From a virus: a stretch of DNA of 25,074 bases. Made by a program: the position numbers and the translations under genes. Under the pieces are notes generated by a model. The model was not told where the DNA came from. It worked only from the letters and a program-made list of their open reading frames with translations, and searched no databases. Positions within the stretch are counted from its first letter, which is position 1; each line of letters begins with the position of its first letter. Positions 2,362 through 21,358 of this stretch are shown in pieces. Where the stretch lies: positions 1-25,074 of IMG/VR virus record IMGVR_UViG_3300025127_000256. One strand, given 5' to 3'.

Positions 2362-2801
2362 GGATTCTGGACTACGACCCCGACCATCTGCATGAGCTGA
2401 TGGATGGCGATCTGAATGACGGGGCAATAAAAAATATTGGCTATATGAAGGAATGGGCTAGCGAGCTGCAACAGCCTGGTTGGTCTTACACTCTTATAGA
2501 AAACGGTCACATTATCTGTTGTGCCGGCATAGTTGATATGTGGCCGGGTGTGGGCGAGGCGTGGTTTATCGCGTCAAGCAAAATACATCAGTATCCAAAG
2601 CCATTTATCAGGTTTGCCAAAACAGACGTGATGAAAAAAGTGGTAGACGAAAATGACCTATGGCGGGTGCAAGCGGTCTGCAAGGCAGACTGGCCGGCAG
2701 CGATCAAGTTCGCCAACTTTATGGGTTTTGAAACTGAAGGTCTGATGCGTAAGTACGGGCCAGAGGCAATGGATTATTTACGAGTAGCATGGGTGCGATA
2801 A
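2358..2801 (+). CDS. GNAT-fold protein at the T7 gp13 position
   Basis: 147 residues beginning MRILDYDPDHLHEL. The GTG start overlaps the preceding TGA (GTGA), consistent with translational coupling. The pattern is that of a degenerate GNAT acetyltransferase as found in podophage gp13-like proteins: an N-terminal helical stretch, a beta pair around WSYTLIENGHIICCAGIVDMWPG, WFIASSKI, then a C-terminal WPAAIKFANFMGFETEGLMRKYG, which is the usual GNAT end (side-by-side helix, 'GF..EG'). In T7, gp13 sits between gp12 and gp14 and is needed for virion assembly. Whether this copy acetylates anything cannot be told from sequence; no clear acetyl-CoA pyrophosphate loop is visible. An internal ATG at 2400 is a poorer start because it would remove the first strand. 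Confidence 0.75.
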   Translation: MRILDYDPDHLHELMDGDLNDGAIKNIGYMKEWASELQQPGWSYTLIENGHIICCAGIVDMWPGVGEAWFIASSKIHQYPKPFIRFAKTDVMKKVVDENDLWRVQAVCKADWPAAIKFANFMGFETEGLMRKYGPEAMDYLRVAWVR

Positions 2802-3248
2802 ATGGGCTTTTTATTTGAAGGTAGAGTCGGTCAGCAAGAACAGGCGGCATATAATTTTACTGCTGATGTTAACGAACGTAACGCTAAGGCAGCTGACCAA
2901 GAAGCAGCTCAGCTTATTTTTACGGAAGAACAGAACATCGTTAAGTTCCGTGAAGATGTTAGTGATCTGCAAGACGCAACAGGGCAAGCTTATCGCCGTA
3001 ATGGCTGGATAGCAGAAGAAGGAACACCTCTTAAAGTAGCGCTCGCCAACGCACAAGAAGCAGATGCCGAGATAGAAACCCGCCGATATAACGCCGCTGT
3101 TGGAGCGCAAACAACGCGCGAAAAAGGTGTTGAGCAAAGATTGCAAGGAACGTTGAATCGTATGTATGGAAAGGCTGCAAGAACAAGAGGCCAGGCTAGG
3201 GCAGTCACTAGCCTTATACAAACTGGCGCAGCCATAGCGGGTGCATAA
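2802..3248 (+). CDS. internal virion (core) protein, gp14-like
   Basis: 148 residues, ATG directly after the preceding TAA with no gap. It is Ala/Gln/Glu-rich and predicted almost fully helical. The stretch GQAYRRNGWIAEEGTPLKVALANAQEADAEIETRRYNAA (about residues 62-100) matches the recurring 'YR.NG...EGTPL.VL...A.E.' pattern of podophage internal virion proteins of the gp14 kind. The C-terminus is hydrophobic (LIQTGAAIAGA). In T7 these proteins form the inner core and are ejected to extend the tail channel through the envelope. The role here is inferred from length, composition and strict T7-like position between gp13-like and gp15-like genes. The stop overlaps the next ATG by one base. Confidence 0.72.
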   Translation: MGFLFEGRVGQQEQAAYNFTADVNERNAKAADQEAAQLIFTEEQNIVKFREDVSDLQDATGQAYRRNGWIAEEGTPLKVALANAQEADAEIETRRYNAAVGAQTTREKGVEQRLQGTLNRMYGKAARTRGQARAVTSLIQTGAAIAGA

Positions 3249-5068
3249 TGAAAGTTCCAACATACAGACAGCAAACAGCGCGAACAGCCTCAACAGGGGC
3301 TACATTTTTCACAACGCAAGCAAATCCCGGCGCTTTATCAGCTGGACTGCGCGCACAAGCGCAAATGTTTGGTGCTGCAGAAAAAGTGGCTGTGGACTAT
3401 TACGCCAATGAACAGAAGATAAAAAGACAAGCAGAGCTTAATGACGCAAATTTTGAATTGAAACAGGAGTTGCAAGAATTACAGCAACAACAAAAAACGC
3501 GATCGCCAAAAGAGGTTTTGTTTGACGATCCGCTTGGCCGCACCACTAGTTTTACAAAACAGGGGCAACAAAAACTAAATGAAATATTGTCTAGAATTAC
3601 GGACAAACGAGTACGGCGCGCTTTTCAAGAAGCATCACGCGATAGCCTTAATACCTTTACCATAAATGTAAACCAGGATGCCCGTAATAGGCTTATCGAT
3701 CAGAATAAAGCCAGCGGTTTGGAAACTGGCAACAACCTTGTTGACGCGATGGTTATGGGCAACCCGGCTGAACGCGAGATTGCTAAGAAAAAATTATTTG
3801 GTGACTCGTCAACTGGCGAGCTAGGTCATTACGAGACGATGGCAGCTGACGGCTATATTAAACAGGTTGATGCTGTAAAGTTAGAGCGTGACGCGCAGAT
3901 CAAACTGCGAGATCGGATTAAGCAAGCTGATACAGCAATTCTTAACAGTAATGTTAATAAAAATGTATTGCTTGCTGGTGATGTATCGCTGCCTTTCACG
4001 CAACGCAATGATGCTTTTTCAAACCTAACAAAAGAGATAGATCAGGCGGTTGCCAACAACACAATTACTGCTGATGAAGGCCAAAAGAAAAAGATGTCGG
4101 CGGCTGATGATACAGTCCGGGCAATCGGATTGAGTATGTTGACAAGATCTCCAGATGCGACCGCTGCGTTTCTACAAATGGCAGAAGGCGATGTTGATGA
4201 CCCGGTTCTGGAATCTGCTTTTACCATGATGGACGCCGGGGACCGCATTAAGGTGCTTAATGATTTAGATACGCTTGCTAAAAAAATTGACACCGAGCGC
4301 AGAGAAAAAGAAGAGGCTGACGAAAACGCTGCCGCAGCTGAAAATAAACTTGCCTATAGAACAATTATTAATGTCGATAAAAACAACCCTACAGCACTTG
4401 AAGCAGCAAAGAGAGTACACCAACAATTGATTGCTCGTCGTTTTTACACTCCTACGGAGCGCAAAGCTGCTGAGTATTTTCTTGGCCTCAACGATAAACC
4501 TGGCGGCACTGAAACAAAAACAACCAAAAATGCAATTAAGATATTACGAAACGCCGATCTGCGAAATGAAGTGACCTTGGATTTAGTCATAAGCCTAGCG
4601 AATGAATTAAGCGTTTCTGATTTTGACAAATATTCTAAGCTGGCTGTGACAGAAGCTAGCGAGGGTTTCAAACGTGCAAAAGACCTCATAGCTGCAAACC
4701 TTAAATATAATGAGTTTAAAGACTCAACAAACGCGCTTGGTAATGCAGCTGATAGGATGTTCGCACAAAGCACCGAAGAATTGATTACATGGCTGGAAAC
4801 AGAGGGCGTTGGTTCTAATTATAATCAAATCGTTGCAAAAGCGCGTGAGATTAATGCCGACAACGCAGTTGAATATAAAGAGCTGATGAGTGAAGCGATT
4901 ACGTCTTATTTACAAGGCCAATCAGTTTTGATGCCCGGTTTGCCTCAGAATATTGAGGAAGCTAAAATATTTTTACAACAAAAACTAGTGGCAAATCCTA
5001 GCGATATGGTGGCTGTTGGTATTACGCAAACGATTAGAGATTATGAAAAGACATTGAGAGGCAATTAG
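3248..5068 (+). CDS. internal virion protein, gp15-like
   Basis: 606 residues starting MKVPTYRQQT, in the ATAATG overlap with the preceding stop. The N-terminus (PTYRQQT...G..FF..QANPGALSAGLRAQAQMFGAAEKVAVDYY) is the typical start of large podophage internal core proteins. The rest is mostly alpha-helical and charged, with heptad-like stretches at about 55-85 (ELKQELQELQQQQ) and 350-370 (EEADENAAAAENK). No enzyme motif is visible. Position and size (T7 gp15 is about 750 residues) support the middle subunit of the ejected core. The stop TAG overlaps the next gene's GTG by one base, so genes 2358-7899 form one coupled block. Confidence 0.72.
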   Translation: MKVPTYRQQTARTASTGATFFTTQANPGALSAGLRAQAQMFGAAEKVAVDYYANEQKIKRQAELNDANFELKQELQELQQQQKTRSPKEVLFDDPLGRTTSFTKQGQQKLNEILSRITDKRVRRAFQEASRDSLNTFTINVNQDARNRLIDQNKASGLETGNNLVDAMVMGNPAEREIAKKKLFGDSSTGELGHYETMAADGYIKQVDAVKLERDAQIKLRDRIKQADTAILNSNVNKNVLLAGDVSLPFTQRNDAFSNLTKEIDQAVANNTITADEGQKKKMSAADDTVRAIGLSMLTRSPDATAAFLQMAEGDVDDPVLESAFTMMDAGDRIKVLNDLDTLAKKIDTERREKEEADENAAAAENKLAYRTIINVDKNNPTALEAAKRVHQQLIARRFYTPTERKAAEYFLGLNDKPGGTETKTTKNAIKILRNADLRNEVTLDLVISLANELSVSDFDKYSKLAVTEASEGFKRAKDLIAANLKYNEFKDSTNALGNAADRMFAQSTEELITWLETEGVGSNYNQIVAKAREINADNAVEYKELMSEAITSYLQGQSVLMPGLPQNIEEAKIFLQQKLVANPSDMVAVGITQTIRDYEKTLRGN

Positions 5069-8046: not shown

Positions 8047-11000
8047 ATGGCAACACCAGCACAACAAGCAGCCCGTGCGCTACGCACCGGGGGCGTGAGG
8101 CAATTCGCCGACACTCAGCCCCAAATAGACGAGGGCATACAGCTAGCTGGCGGTCTAAGTAAATTGTTGCAACGGGCGGCAAAAGCCGCACCAGGCACAG
8201 CGCGTCAGGCACTAGATGCAGATCAAGCGACAAAGCAAGCTGAAGCGCTCGCAGAACAAAAACGAAAACAAGCACAAGTAAAAGCAGAGGGCGGCGACCC
8301 GAAAACTGTGCGCGGTCCTGATCCTATTGCAGCTGGCCGTGTTGCTGAGCCTATCACCGAGGGCATTGCGCCAGAAGGAACAACGCGCGAAGCAACACAG
8401 CAGAAGCTTGCAACAGACGCATTATCGGAAGAGGGCCGAGAGCGGTTTTTTACAACAGGTAATGACGCGCGCGCTGCTATACAGACGCCCACAAAACGTG
8501 AGATAGCTGACCAGCCGGATTTGTTTGAAACTGTGCCGGCAGAGTCTGAGCTTGCTGCAAATGAGCAAGTGACGAAAAAAGCGCAAATGGCTATGAGTCC
8601 GTTGGAGCCCGTAGCTAAAAGCGAATCTGCTATTGCTGATCCCGGTGATGCCAGTGATTTAATACGCATGGCAACAGAGCCAGGTCTTGTTGATGAGGCT
8701 GGCATTGATTTTAATTTTGATAATTTTGAAGGCGGCGAGGACATTAATCGCGTAGTCAACGCAATGTCCGATATTATCAAAAACCCAACTGAGGCACAAA
8801 AGCGTGGTATTGTAACAAATAAAGAAACACTAGCTAACGCCGGCGAGCTGCTAGCTGATGAGGTTGGTTTTACCAGAAGCATATTACGCAAACAGTCGGG
8901 CGCTACCTTAAACGCTGAAGAAATGACAGCTTTGCGCATTTTGTTGCAAAAGTCAGGCAAGCGTCTGCAAGAAATGGCCGTGCAAATACAGAGCGGTTTA
9001 GCTAGCCCCAAAGCGATGATTGATTTTAGACGGCAAATGTCTATTCATGCTGGCATCCAAATGAAAGCAAAAGGCGCGCAGACTGAGATAGCGAGAGCCA
9101 TGCAAGCTTTTAAAATACCAGTTGGAACCCAAGTGCCAGCTGAGGTCATGGACGGAATATTGAAAGAAGCCGGTGGCCGTGGCCTTACGCAAAAAATGGC
9201 AAAAGGATATCTAGAAGCCTTGGCAGAAGGTGGTCAGGCAAATGCAAATAAATATGTGAGCGGCGCCTGGTCGCAAAAAGTTGAGAATGTGTGGATGGAA
9301 GTCTATATGAACGGGCTTTTATCTTACTTTCCAACACATTTAAAAAACGGTTTAGCGACACCGTTATTTATGACTTACAACGTCCTAACTGACCTAATGT
9401 CGGCAAGTATTGGCGCAACATTTCGCACTGGTGCTAGGTTGGCTGGCCGAGACGTTGACCCTGACGGTGTACATTTTGAAGATGTGTTTGCGCGTGTTTA
9501 CGGGTTTGGTCAATCATTTGGCGATGCGTGGGCAGTGGCATCAAAATCCTTTATAGAAGAGACGCCGGCAGACACACTTAACAAAGTTGAGGGTGCTACA
9601 TTACGCGCTATTGATAGAGAAACGCTAAACATTGACAACAACAGCATAGGAAAAGCCGTTGACCATATGGGGCGTGTTATTCGCTTGCCTGGTCGAGCAT
9701 TAATGTTTGCTGATGATTTTTTTAAAACAATCGCAGCTAGAGGCGCGTTGTATGAGGAATCAATCCGCGCATATAGAAAATCAAAGAACATGGGGCGTAA
9801 CGATACGGAAGCAATGGACGACGCCATGATGGTAATGCTTGATCCAAAGTATGCCAGTGATGAAATGGATGCCGCTGGTCGTTATGCAACAATGACAACC
9901 GATTTAGGTGACGGCGTTGTTGGTAGATTTACCAACGCTTTTAGAGGCAATATGTTGGGCAAGTTAATTATGCCTTTTGCCAAAGCCCCGTCAAACACTG
10001 TTAAAATCGTTGCAGAGGGCCATCCGTTTGTACAAGCAATAGCGGCTGTCAATCCTAGCTCAGCTAAAGTCAGAGATACATTAATGGGCAAAAACGGAGC
10101 GCGAGCGCGTGACCGGGCTCTTGGCAGAATGGCAATGGCAAGCACAACCTTTATGGGGTTTCATGAACTTGCCATGAACGGGCGTATCACTGGGTCATAC
10201 CCGGTTGATAAACAGTTGCAAAAAATGTTGCCGCCTAACTGGCAACCATACAGTTTTGTTTTTCGCGGCGAAGGGTTCCCGGTAGACGAAGATGGCGATC
10301 CGTTGCCGCTGTACAATAAAGAAACAGGTCTGCCCAATGGCCCAGTGACATATATCAGTTACCAGGGGCTAGAGCCGGTCAGTGCGTTTGTAGGCATAGC
10401 TGCAAGCACTGTGCGCCATCAGACCATGTTTGTTGATCCAGAGGACAGATTAAACTTTTTTAGTGCTTCAACATTAGCGACAATGGAGTATTTCCGCGAT
10501 CTGCCTATGTTGCAGGGAATCGGAACAATTTACAAAGCGTTCCAGTATGAAGACCCCAGCATGATTACAAATGGGTTTCTAGGCGGGACAGCTATTGTCT
10601 TTCCAATGCCGTTTAGCTCGGTTGTCCGAAATGTAGAAAAGCTAACGGGTGACAATGCCAAGCGCAGAGTTGACCAGCCTTATTCCTATTACACTGTAGA
10701 TGACGTCAGGGTTTTGTACGAAGAAAGCCAAAACACAGATAACCCATATAGCAAAATTCCTTACAGTCTGGTTGGGACAGTAAAAAATTGGCAAGACGCC
10801 AGCTGGTCAAAATTGTTTTACGAGCAAGTTGCCTGGGGTTGGGAACAGCAAGTTATGAACATACCGTTCGTCGAAAAGGTAGAGGAAAACTATGCCTTTC
10901 AATACGATATGTTAGGCAACAAAAAAACCCGCACTTTGCGGCACGATGTAAATCCGATAGCTGCGATCTGGAGCAATGTTACGCCGTTCAAAATGTCATT

Positions 11001-11409: not shown

Positions 11410-13232
11410 TGACAGTATCAACCACGACGAACCGTGCCAGTTACTCTGGGAACGGCAGCACAGATGCGTTTGCTTACGGGTTCAAGATCTTTGCAGATGC
11501 TGACCTGACGGTAATTATCAGATCGTCAGCTGGCGTTGAAACCACAAAAACCCTAACGACCCACTACACCGTTAGCGGAGCTGGCACTGACAGCGGCGGC
11601 AACGTGACATTTACCAGCGGCAACATCCCGGCATCCGGCGAAACGGTTGTTATTCTGCGCAAGCTTACATTGACTCAAGGCACAGACTACGTCGCAAACG
11701 ATCCCTTCCCAGCTGAATCACATGAGGATGCGCTTGACCGGCTGACAATGATTACTCAGCAGCTCGACGAAGCGGTAGGCAGATCTCTCAAAGTGTCACA
11801 AACAAACGTGATTGCAACCTCTGAGTTTACAACCTCAGCGAGCGACAGAGCTAACAAGTTACTGAGCTTTGACGGTAGCGGCGATTTAACGGTCACTGAG
11901 GGCAAGGTAGATACTGTTACGGCATCTGTGTCGGCTGTATCTGCTGGCGGCTCTCCCACAGCTTCTGCAACTTTTACAGCGTCATCTGGTGCGCTTGCCT
12001 TGGCCTTTGGGCTTGTGACAGGTAACACTGGCGCAACAGGCAACTCTGCTGGTATGCAGCTAACCTTCAGCAACAGCACCTCAGATGCCGATCCTGGTGC
12101 TGGCAAACTGGCACTAAACAACGGCACTATCGCATCTGTGACTGAAATGTACTTTGATGATGTTGATGACAATGGCGCAACCATATCTACATTTGTGCAG
12201 AGCTTTGACGACATAAGCAATGCCACAGCCAGAGGCATCATATCCATTGAGAAAGAAGGAACACCAGCTACCTTTGCGCTGTTTAAGGTAACAGGCGCAG
12301 TCACAAACGCATCAGGGTATACCAAGGTTCCTGTCGGGCATCTGGCGTCCAATGGTTCGTTTAGCAACGCTGATGGCATCCGTGTTGATTTTAATTATAG
12401 CGGCGCAGATGGTGCTGGGTCACTAACAAATGTGATTGGCGATACAACGCCGCAGCTTGGTGGCGATCTTGATATGAATGGTCAGGATATTGTGACCACA
12501 TCCAATGCTACCATAGATCTTGCGCCAAATGGCACTGGCACGGTTGTTGTCCGAGGCAACACAAATCCAGGCACAATCGTTTTCAATTGTGAAAACAATA
12601 CACATGGTCAAACAGTCAAAGCACAGCCTCACAGCGCATCTGTGACAAACGTGCTTACCTTGCCAGCAGGGGGCGATCAAACCTTAGTTGGTACGGCTGG
12701 CGCGACCTTTACTGGTGTGGTTGCTGCTACGACTTTTGAACCAAGTGCCGACACATCTAGCGGTGACAACGCTGCAATCGGTTATACTGCGGCAGAGGGG
12801 CTTATCCTAACAGGGCAAGGCTCTACATCAGACGTTACAATTAAAAATGATGCTGACACTACGGTTGCTTCTATTGCAACAGGCACAAGCATATTCACAC
12901 TCAATAATGATGTGGGCGTTAGCGGCAGAGCCGTGGGTCATGTAACTACAGACAATGATGGCAGCTTTGATTTGGCTGTAGGCAACGATTTCAAATGCAC
13001 AACGGCTGGCGGTTTGACGCTGACGTTTACAAACGCAGCGGCAGGACAAAGCGGTAACATTATGTTTGTCAATGGCGGCAACCACACGATTGCAGCCCAT
13101 GCTGACGTTGCCATAAGCGCAGATTCACTAACGGCTATTTCAGCCACAGGCACATATCATTTAGCTTATTATTGCAGTGCAGCAAGTGGCAGCAACAGTA
13201 TCTTAGTGTCTGCATCGGCTGCTTTGACATAA
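11409..13232 (+). CDS. tail fibre protein with T7-type N-terminal domain
   Basis: 607 residues; ATG in a TAATG overlap with the preceding stop. Residues 1 to about 130 (TTTNRASYSGNGSTDAFAYGFKIF, ADLTVIIRSSAGVETT, LHYTV-like 'THYTVSGAG', GETVVILRKLTLTQGTDYVANDPFPAESHEDALDRLTMI) are the T7 gp17 N-terminal domain that docks fibres on the tail. A short collagen-like GNTGATGNSAG lies at about 206. IGDTTPQLGGDLDMNGQDI at about 345 is a frequent phage-fibre linker followed by beta-rich repeats. The C-terminus (545-600) is a small beta domain, with GQSGNIMFVNGGNHTIA and ATGTYHLAYYC, common at fibre tips. It probably attaches the adhesin encoded next, or binds the host surface itself. The family call for the N-terminus is firm. 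Confidence 0.9.
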   Translation: MTVSTTTNRASYSGNGSTDAFAYGFKIFADADLTVIIRSSAGVETTKTLTTHYTVSGAGTDSGGNVTFTSGNIPASGETVVILRKLTLTQGTDYVANDPFPAESHEDALDRLTMITQQLDEAVGRSLKVSQTNVIATSEFTTSASDRANKLLSFDGSGDLTVTEGKVDTVTASVSAVSAGGSPTASATFTASSGALALAFGLVTGNTGATGNSAGMQLTFSNSTSDADPGAGKLALNNGTIASVTEMYFDDVDDNGATISTFVQSFDDISNATARGIISIEKEGTPATFALFKVTGAVTNASGYTKVPVGHLASNGSFSNADGIRVDFNYSGADGAGSLTNVIGDTTPQLGGDLDMNGQDIVTTSNATIDLAPNGTGTVVVRGNTNPGTIVFNCENNTHGQTVKAQPHSASVTNVLTLPAGGDQTLVGTAGATFTGVVAATTFEPSADTSSGDNAAIGYTAAEGLILTGQGSTSDVTIKNDADTTVASIATGTSIFTLNNDVGVSGRAVGHVTTDNDGSFDLAVGNDFKCTTAGGLTLTFTNAAAGQSGNIMFVNGGNHTIAAHADVAISADSLTAISATGTYHLAYYCSAASGSNSILVSASAALT

Positions 13233-19695: not shown

Positions 19696-19739
19696 GGTGC
19701 CAAAGCTCTTGGCACCCGCTGGTGCCAAGCCGGTGCCAG
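19696..19739 (+). repeat. GGTGCCAA repeats, left arm (putative integrase arm sites)
   Basis: GGTGCCAA at 19696-19703, its inverse TTGGCACC at 19709-19716, GGTGCCAA at 19721-19728 and GGTGCCAG at 19732-19739. The last two are 11 bases apart, one helical turn. The first two form a perfect 8-bp inverted repeat with loop AGCTC, but no T-run follows, so I do not call a terminator. The same tandem pair with the same 11-base step recurs on the other side of the tRNA fragment. Confidence 0.65.
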
Positions 19740-19792
19740 ACCACATGGGTGCAGGGGGGTTATGGTGGATTAAGGTTGACCCGTAAGTGTCT

Positions 19793-19804
19793 GTGATATA
19801 TCAC
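19793..19804. repeat. 12-base perfect palindrome GTGATATATCAC
   Basis: A perfect palindrome 28 bases left of the tRNA fragment, nested in a wider imperfect one (AAGTG at 19785 and CACTT at 19802). It lies between the left arm repeats and the core, where excisionase, IHF or a regulator could bind. There is no direct evidence for any one of these. Confidence 0.4.
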
Positions 19805-19831
19805 TTGAGGATATAGCAAGACGCTTTTTTT

Positions 19832-19858
19832 CAGGTTCGAATCCTGTCGCGCTCACCA
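19832..19858 (+). other. tRNA 3'-end fragment, putative att core
   Basis: CAGG-TTCGAAT-CCTG forms a T-arm, then T, the 7-base acceptor strand CGCGCTC, discriminator A and CCA. There is no 5' half: upstream sequence does not offer an acceptor partner (GAGCGCG), D-arm or anticodon arm. The outer T-stem pair would be T19831-T19847, a mismatch, so identity with the host tRNA probably begins at 19832. Phage tyrosine integrases often use tRNA 3' ends as attB, and the phage copy restores the gene. The tRNA species cannot be told from this part. Confidence 0.8.
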
Positions 19859-19871
19859 TTTTGTATGGTGT

Positions 19872-19912
19872 TAAGCCACTGAAAGCACTAGCTTTTGGTG
19901 GTTTATTTTTTT
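19872..19912 (+). terminator. strong terminator directly after the tRNA fragment
   Basis: AAGCCACT-GAAAGC (19873-19886) pairs with GCTTTT-GGTGGTTT (19891-19904) around tetraloop ACTA, and T19872 pairs with A19905. This gives about 15 pairs with a few G-T wobbles, followed by seven T. It starts 14 bases after the CCA. It would stop late transcription before integrase in phage form and end the tRNA transcript in the integrated form. Confidence 0.82.
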
Positions 19913-19917
19913 GTCTG

Positions 19918-19936
19918 GGTGCCAAGCTGGTGCCAA
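19918..19936 (+). repeat. GGTGCCAA repeats, right arm (putative integrase arm sites)
   Basis: GGTGCCAA at 19918-19925 and 19929-19936, same strand, 11 bases apart, with AGCT between start positions. The spacing and orientation match the pair at 19721-19739 on the other side of the core. Confidence 0.65.
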
Positions 19937-19964
19937 AGACAACGTAAAAAGTCGCGAGAGTAAC

Positions 19965-20004
19965 GGGATTATCCCTTGAACTTGACGGAATACGTCACTA
20001 TGTA
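19965..20004 (+). promoter_or_regulatory. promoter/operator of the small gene-integrase unit
   Basis: Palindrome GGGAT-T-ATCCC (19965-19975) is followed at once by TTGAAC (19976-19981), 17 bases, and TATGTA (19999-20004), a possible -35/-10 pair. Overlapping it, CTTGACGGAATACGTCA (19981-19997) is a copy of the motif found at the nuclease and repressor promoters, with arms GACG...CGTC. Alternatively its own TTGACG is the -35 box. The start point is uncertain; the motif match is direct. Confidence 0.55.
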
Positions 20005-20036
20005 AGTAGTGTAAGGTCAAGAAAAGGAGATAGACC

Positions 20037-20234
20037 ATGGTTAAGATAGACAAAATTATTCGCGAAGCAGAAATACACTGCAACCGCGTGTGGCTCAGCG
20101 CTGAAATTATTGCAAGTGAGCTAAATAAAATACGACAGGCATTGGACAGGCAAAATAATTTGTCAGTCGATCAGCTCGCACAACTCAAGGTTTTAGAAAG
20201 CACACTCATTAACAAAAAACAAGGGTGGCAATAA
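20037..20234 (+). CDS. small helical hypothetical protein upstream of integrase (65 aa)
   Basis: MVKIDKIIREAEIHCNRVWLSAEIIASELNKIRQALDRQNNLSVDQLAQLKVLESTLINKKQGWQ-type composition, all predicted helix. AAGGAG (20024-20029) stands 7 bases before the ATG, a very good start. The stop overlaps the integrase ATG by one base (TAATG), so the two are co-translated. I do not recognise a family. The position in front of int would suit a directionality factor, but there is no visible HTH or basic patch, and a better excisionase candidate lies at 21561. It may modulate integrase expression or form a small oligomer. Confidence 0.6.
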   Translation: MVKIDKIIREAEIHCNRVWLSAEIIASELNKIRQALDRQNNLSVDQLAQLKVLESTLINKKQGWQ

Positions 20235-21358
20235 TGGACATAGAAATTAAAAAATACAAGTCGCGTGAGAAGTTAGGCAAAGCTGGGTTTTGTGTAGACA
20301 CCAGGTCTATTGTTGCTAACGGCAAGCGTGAGTTTTTTTACACAAGGCTAGAGGCTGAGCGTCACGTCGATAAGATCAACGCAGAGTTGACACCGAGCAC
20401 AGCAGCTGCGTGGGATTGGGACTTTGATATGCTGTACCGCAATTTCATAACCCACATCACAAGCCAGCATGACAAGGGTGACATGACCACGTCATCAAAG
20501 TCAGAAAAAGAGCGCGATGCAAAATTGTTTGTCGGTCTTATTCTTGACGGTAAACCTGTCGGGCAAAGCAAGGTGCGTGATCTTACAACCGGGCATATGC
20601 GGTTGCAGATCGTTGAGCAACTGCGGGTCGGTCGAGCTAAAAAGACTGTCGATAATATCCTCGGCTCGCTCAGATACTTTATGAGCTACTCTATTGATGC
20701 TGGTTGCCGCAACAGCAATCCAATGACTGACGTTAAAGGCAAGGGCGACAAAGCCAAGCCAGCAAAACAGATCAAGCAGATACAGCCTGACGTGATCAAC
20801 GCAATTATCGATGCAATGCCGGTTCACTGGGCTTTGCGCGCTAGGTTTGCTGCAACTACTGGTCTACGCCAGGGCGAGCTGCGCGCGCTTGTGTGGGCTG
20901 ACATTGACTGGGGCAAGCCTGGTTATGTTTATGTCAACAAGGCGGTCAAGCATAACAGCAGTGACATAGGTGATCCTAAAACCAAGCGCGGCAAGCGCAA
21001 GGTGCCGCTGCACCCGGACGTCAAACAGTCATTGCAAGAGCTCTATTTGTTGCTCGGCAGACCAGCTGATGACGCGCTAGTTTTTACCGGCAGATTCGGT
21101 GACCCGCTCGGCACAAATGTTTTTGCTAAGGTTATTGGCAAGGCGTGTAAGGAAGCCGGCGTTGACCGCATCAGGTGGCATGATTTGCGTCACTACTATG
21201 CCAGCCGGCTGTTGCAAAAGTTTGGCGCTGATTGGTGGACAATCACTAACCTGATGGGCCACGCCAGCATCAGCACAACTAGCGATGTTTACGGCCACTG
21301 GCTCGACGATAAAGAGCGCGACGATAAGATTGCTGACGGCATAGCGGAGGCGTTCTAA
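20234..21358 (+). CDS. int: tyrosine-type site-specific integrase
   Basis: 374 residues from the ATG overlapping the preceding stop; a GTG nine bases upstream is possible, but it falls within the likely Shine-Dalgarno AAGGG. Residues 1-50 (IEIKKYKSREKLGKAGFCVD, FFYTRLEAERHVDKINAEL) look like a short arm-binding domain and 60-165 like the core-binding SAM-like domain. The catalytic domain shows R212 (TTGLRQGELRAL), a basic K near 250-256 (KTKRGKRKVPLH), H316-D-L-R319-H (WHDLRHYYASRLL), H343 (LMGHASISTTS) and nucleophile Y353 (DVYGHW). All key residues are present, so it should be active. It would recombine the attP at 19693-19936 with a host tRNA gene. It is transcribed away from attP and ends against a convergent operon. 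Confidence 0.95.
   Translation: MDIEIKKYKSREKLGKAGFCVDTRSIVANGKREFFYTRLEAERHVDKINAELTPSTAAAWDWDFDMLYRNFITHITSQHDKGDMTTSSKSEKERDAKLFVGLILDGKPVGQSKVRDLTTGHMRLQIVEQLRVGRAKKTVDNILGSLRYFMSYSIDAGCRNSNPMTDVKGKGDKAKPAKQIKQIQPDVINAIIDAMPVHWALRARFAATTGLRQGELRALVWADIDWGKPGYVYVNKAVKHNSSDIGDPKTKRGKRKVPLHPDVKQSLQELYLLLGRPADDALVFTGRFGDPLGTNVFAKVIGKACKEAGVDRIRWHDLRHYYASRLLQKFGADWWTITNLMGHASISTTSDVYGHWLDDKERDDKIADGIAEAF

Follow-up and report, generated by a model that had tools for sequence, protein, structure and literature searches.

The Probable Arm-Type Sites of an Uncultured Phage and the Integrase Inferred to Read Them

Positions 19696-19936 of the window, by which we refer to the whole 25-kb stretch of viral DNA analysed here (25,074 nucleotides), very probably serve as attP for a podovirus-like temperate phage that infects SAR116 bacteria and whose lambda-type integrase is inferred to read arm sites flanking the core. 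It is further likely that these arm sites can be predicted from the protein alone, by a code in which residue 16 of the integrase goes with base 1 of the site, residue 25 with base 7 and residue 32 with bases 4-5, and that arm specificity evolves as a module of its own, apart from the tRNA target. The residue-to-base code appears to be new: a literature search, which left most subscription journals outside its coverage, has turned up no account of a code of this kind. The window, a virus record, encodes a GH108 endolysin, an Erf-like protein, a Cro/C1-like regulator and a tyrosine integrase. Its likeness to the HTVC010P-like pelagiphages has been judged by the tail protein only, the tail tubular protein B being 52% identical over 85% to the HTVC010P counterpart; for the integrase, the phage collection contains no match at ≥60% identity.

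Layout of the attP Region

A preliminary description of this DNA had reported tandem copies of GGTGCCAR, 11 bases apart, on both sides of a tRNA fragment, together with an inverted pair, and all six copies are exact matches. The P arm carries four of them and the P' arm two, as had been counted. Site 1 (19696-19703, plus strand, GGTGCCAA) forms the outer half of the inverted pair and keeps its position at -143 in most relatives, and site 2 (19709-19716, GGTGCCAA on the minus strand) forms the inner half; the left direct pair follows with site 3 (19721-19728, plus strand) as its first and site 4 (19732-19739, plus strand, GGTGCCAG) as its second copy, and the P' arm bears sites 5 (19918-19925) and 6 (19929-19936), both on the plus strand. 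Relative to the centre of the T-loop, the sites start at -143, -130 (inverted), -118, -107, +79 and +90, so that each direct pair is spaced by 11 bp and the inverted pair by 13 bp. The symmetry that had been ascribed to the region is only partial: an 11-bp direct pair is present on each side, but both pairs point in the same direction, the sites number four against two, and mirror symmetry is absent. GGTGCCAR matches the whole window nine times where 2.0 matches are expected, and six of these fall within 241 bp, while no more than two per 241 bp have been seen in 1000 first-order Markov simulations. Arm-type sites that flank the core on both sides and are distinct from the core sites are a membership feature of the lambda-type integrases, which is met here.

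The attP core between the arms comprises 27 bp (19832-19858, plus strand) and is identical to the 3' end, from T-arm to CCA, of the SAR116 tRNA-Lys(UUU); it has been found in 61 stretches of the genome collection, many of them from SAR116 bacteria. From the left limit of attP/attB identity, a 7-bp overlap TTCGAAT in the T-loop is inferred at 19836-19842 (plus strand), between putative half sites CAGG and CCTG. The crossover point is thus an inference, and the same holds for which of the six sites serve integration or excision and for any need for bending proteins. Directly to the right of the core, a terminator-like hairpin with a T-run occupies 19872-19912 on the plus strand (-19.5 kcal/mol, z -4.2), which is kept in relatives and is also found behind tRNA-Lys in the host relic described below. 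After integration, this hairpin would stand behind the restored host tRNA gene and could shield int from tRNA read-through.

Two further elements lie between the P' arm and int. The block GTCGCGAGAGTAACGGGATTATCCCTTGAACTTGACGGAATACGTCAC at 19950-20010, upstream of the next gene, is kept in relatives, went unreported by the consensus scan and may be an int promoter that includes an operator. The short gene at 20037-20240, between attP and int, varies from phage to phage and is missing in some; this position is a site of gene exchange.

Traces of Integration in SAR116 Genomes

Integration at the host tRNA-Lys has left a record in Candidatus Puniceispirillum sp. AH-135-F23 (L018). There, the terminator-like hairpin of the phage stands behind the tRNA-Lys gene; next come 1.3 kb that contain one ORF, then a P arm with its sites (92% identity to the window), and finally the tRNA 3' end once more, so that the core is duplicated at both ends of the integrated relic. 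A relative with an empty site (L039) has its tRNA-Lys joined directly to the sequence beyond the second core copy of L018, and joining both L018 flanks yields the empty site. An attP core that equals the 3' end of a host tRNA and is duplicated at attL and attR marks a tRNA 3'-end (T-loop) element, and this feature is met. A remnant of the right side has been retained in L026, and other SAR116 genomes (L111 and L112) hold relics of the P arm and of the P' arm, located at a tRNA-Asp core. The single ORF of the L018 relic (2667-3794) encodes a glycoside hydrolase-like protein of 375 aa and may be cargo that remained after prophage decay.

An intact prophage with the window integrase has been found neither in 12 genomes at 1e-10, where there was a 28% match only, nor in 136 order-level SAR116 genomes at 1e-25, nor in 385 class-level genomes at 1e-60 or 1e-50. 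This absence is weak evidence, because the genome sets searched contained no positive control.

The Integrase and Its N-Terminal Domain

The tyrosine integrase is encoded at 20234-21358 on the plus strand; counting from its ATG gives 374 aa, and translation could also start at a GTG further upstream (20225). It is identified by its catalytic domain (PF00589, E 5.7e-22), by the PHROG integrase assignment and by an alignment of its predicted model to lambda Int structures over the full length; the R, H, R, H and Y columns of the R..HxxR..H..Y signature are invariant in 19 sequences. Residues 1-55 (20234-20398, plus strand) form a domain for which AlphaFold2 models predict the β-β-β-α fold that is expected of an arm-binding domain, with a pLDDT of about 80. 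None of the Pfam Arm-DNA-bind families matches this N-domain, whose sequence family seems to be undescribed. An initial structure model that drew on 7 sequences was of poor quality beyond the N-domain. Against full-length lambda Int, the predicted model aligns from its residue 4 to lambda residues 13 onward, with a large rmsd because the domains move. Counted from the M of MDIEIK, the three residues of interest are Lys16 (codon 20279-20281), Ser25 (20306-20308) and Arg32 (20327-20329), all on the plus strand; the model places residue 16 before strand 2, residue 25 after strand 2 and residue 32 at the opening of strand 3.

Arms and Core Change Separately Among Relatives

A comparison with the attP of related integrases had been proposed as a check on the arm sites, and it has borne them out: two direct sites 11 bp apart are present on each side in dozens of relatives, and the window layout recurs in every relative with a fully resolved flank. 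The motif itself is not constant. Related viral contigs carry GGTGCCA, AGTGCCT, TGTGCCA, CATGCCA or GGTCACA, and the core of the motif (GTGCCA, GTGCCT, ATGCCA, GTCACA and others) changes at all sites together. Left and right sites differ by a mean of 0.47 bases within an attP and by 2.03 bases between attPs (12 dereplicated attPs, permutation p about 5e-5), and motif change therefore touches both arms of an attP.

Pairs of relatives separate the two ends of the protein. The integrases of L003 and L004 differ at 10 of 40 positions in residues 1-40 and at only 2 of 334 elsewhere; their tRNA-Lys core is identical, and their arms differ by CCA to CCT at five of the six sites. The opposite case is given by L133 and L137, which differ at 2/40 positions in residues 1-40 and at 77/332 elsewhere, and in which the tRNA cores are different and the arm motif is identical. 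L118 has a tRNA-Asp core and an integrase of 49% identity, yet the same arm motif. As far as can be read from these sequences, the arms travel with the N-domain and the core with the remainder of the integrase. In a partial Mantel test that controlled for catalytic distance, motif and N-domain distances were not significantly correlated (r 0.14, p 0.23), so the signal sits in single residues and not in overall N-domain distance.

A Probable Residue-to-Base Code

The rules relating residues to bases have been derived from 38 non-redundant integrase/attP pairs, taken from 80 further loci and the window, with the site numbered N1 G2 T3 G4 C5 C6 A7. Residue 32 sorts bases 4-5 without exception (Arg with GC in 23/23, Gln with CA in 15/15 pairs), and the same holds for residue 25 and base 7, where Tyr goes with T in all 7 pairs and any other residue with A in all 31. 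Base 1 follows residue 16 closely: Trp is found with C (8/8), His with T (5/5), Leu with A (2/2), Lys with G (18/19) and Arg with G (2/3), L162 being an exception in which Lys16 is accompanied by a mixture of A, C and G. Counted site by site, Arg32 occurs with GC at 92/92 and Gln32 with CA at 58/60 sites. Among the 374 columns of the integrase, residue 32 is the sole full determinant of bases 4-5 and residue 25 that of base 7; among columns beyond residues 1-55, the highest scores are 0.21, 0.16 and 0.26 against 1.00, 0.33 and 0.68 (mutual information/joint entropy; the first values refer to bases 4-5).

Four loci were excluded from the 38 pairs, a decision that was taken after inspecting them: L212, L217 and L219 have motifs outside N[GA][TC](GC|CA)C[AT], and the N-domain of L213 is two residues shorter. 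The arms of L144, L177, L184, L197, L199, L215, L218, L230, L265-267, L276, L277 and L284 remained unresolved, with short or unusual flanks. The code extends only in part to more distant domains: the rules fail in L212, L217 and L219, and in L273 and L287 base 5 alone agrees.

The rules were fixed ahead of the last scan, which supplied a hold-out set of eight loci (L231-L236, L243 and L239) whose arms were found by an unsupervised four-site search. The contig of L239 is that of the earlier L206, in which the arms had been unresolved, so that only the remaining seven contigs are entirely new. Bases 4-5 were predicted correctly in 8/8 cases, base 7 in 7/8 and base 1 in all 7 cases for which a prediction existed. 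The single miss is L231, which has Phe25 and G at base 7, while L232 carries Ile16, for which no prior rule existed, and has A at base 1.

Contact, Ancestry or Another Protein

That residues 16, 25 and 32 make the base contacts is inferred from this association, and the alternative that has to be taken most seriously, although we consider it improbable, is that the association merely reflects common descent, N-domains and arms having been inherited in blocks. Block exchange of this kind is conceivable, and well-supported independent pairs are few: there are five for residue 32, four for Tyr25 and five for Trp16 with C, all concordant, and with five independent pairs a sign test gives p 0.06, the pair numbers being too small to pass 0.05. 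On a tree of the catalytic part, however, residue 32 and bases 4-5 change 8 times each, and Tyr25 and base 7 change 5 times each; the at least eight changes of residue 32 alongside those of its bases argue against mere co-inheritance. Sister pairs such as L142/L143, L181/L183 and L191/L194 switch the residue and the bases both, and in these pairs as well as in L203/L205 and L168/L171 the expected residues are present; L142, for instance, combines Arg32 with GGTGCCA, and L143 combines Gln32 with GGTCACA. Moreover, each of the three residues tracks its own base position independently, the hold-out prediction succeeded, and even under block exchange the domain would have to read the sites.

Weaker still is the proposal that some other phage protein, such as an excisionase or a repressor, occupies the sites and that their association with the integrase is only indirect, by linkage. 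The arms of lambda-type attPs do also bear sites for Xis and other factors (PMC4880445), and a regulator could act from the P' arm, which immediately precedes int. The proposal is countered by the determination of the bases by single columns of the N-domain and by none outside residues 1-55, and by the loci L009, L136 and L137, in which the P' arm and int are immediate neighbours; elsewhere the intervening gene is unrelated. Hardly tenable is the idea that the inverted pair (19696-19716) is merely a hairpin that ends transcription of the gene upstream, the remaining copies being incidental, since the pair, although it comes after a stop codon and folds well as RNA (-14.4 kcal/mol), is followed by no T-run, co-varies in sequence with the other sites in relatives, and is replaced by tandem direct copies in L133 and L137.

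Binding by the integrase itself accordingly remains our reading of the six copies. The kept layout and left-right co-change, the host relic with its empty site, and the tracking of residues and bases all support their placement as arm-type sites on the two arms, P and P', of an attP. The assignment to the integrase N-domain, which had been no more than an inference in the preliminary description, has gained comparative support from residues 16, 25 and 32, including the hold-out loci, in the absence of a footprint. Although binding data are lacking and physical docking of the N-domain is inferred from comparisons alone, an arm-type function for the integrase N-domain is strongly supported.

Comparison With Other Integrases

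The window resembles lambda attP/Int in its presumed heterobivalent integrase and in having arm sites to the left and right of the core, at comparable distances from it. The P-arm sites annotated in the lambda record, GGTCACT at -141 and AGTCACT at -109, share the N-G-T-C-A-C-T shape with the Gln32/Tyr25 class of the window relatives. Unlike in lambda, the core of the window is a tRNA T-loop, and int, located on the P' side, points away from attP; a xis gene has not been identified beside the window int. The lambda Int N-domain reads the major groove by a β-sheet, as stated by the title of Fadeev 2009, as cited in PMC4880445. Asn, Thr and Lys of lambda Int align to residues 16, 25 and 32 and do not obey the code, in an alignment that is insecure. 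A transfer of the code to lambda Int has been rejected, the hhalign probability being 0.04, and the rules do not carry over to it.

Integrases of the Tn916 type likewise place three strands and a helix N-terminal to the core-binding and catalytic domains (PMC8138268), but the window N-domain differs from them in matching no Arm-DNA-bind family. Mycobacteriophage Ms6 offers a parallel for the core, with a crossover inferred in the T-loop and a restored tRNA 3' end, and differs in its use of tRNA-Ala and in phage, host and integrase (PMC1762012).

The same tRNA-Lys core is also used by a second, unrelated integrase group (L074, L075, L077, L084, L090 and L093), whose repeats GTCTAGT, GTCTTGT and GTCTGTA seemingly co-vary with the integrase N-terminus. 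L092, with an integrase of another type encoded by a divergent gene, has GGGTAGCA pairs 11 bp apart on both sides (12409-12689, turned strand), and its attP identity begins in the anticodon loop of tRNA-Lys. In L083, a 12-bp tandem TTTGGCACCAAA repeat resembling the window motif lies to the right of the tRNA-Lys core at about 10685-10710 (turned strand), beside a different integrase.

Proposed Mechanism and Implications

Taken as a heterobivalent lambda-type tyrosine recombinase, the integrase would act with its core-binding and catalytic domains on the T-loop core of tRNA-Lys, while its N-terminal β-β-β-α domain would dock onto the arm sites. Each same-face 11-bp pair, on P and on P', could accommodate two N-domains, which would read N-G-T-G-C-C-A through residue 16 at base 1, residue 32 at bases 4-5 and residue 25 at base 7.

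The DNA choice of arm-binding domains was previously known from a few model integrases such as lambda and Tn916. The phages described here add dozens of natural variants that switch arm specificity by single residues while the architecture is unchanged, which makes the contact rules directly testable. Arm specificity and the chromosomal target, tRNA-Lys or tRNA-Asp, change independently. The arm sites of uncultured phages become predictable, and uncultured marine phages are given a host, SAR116.
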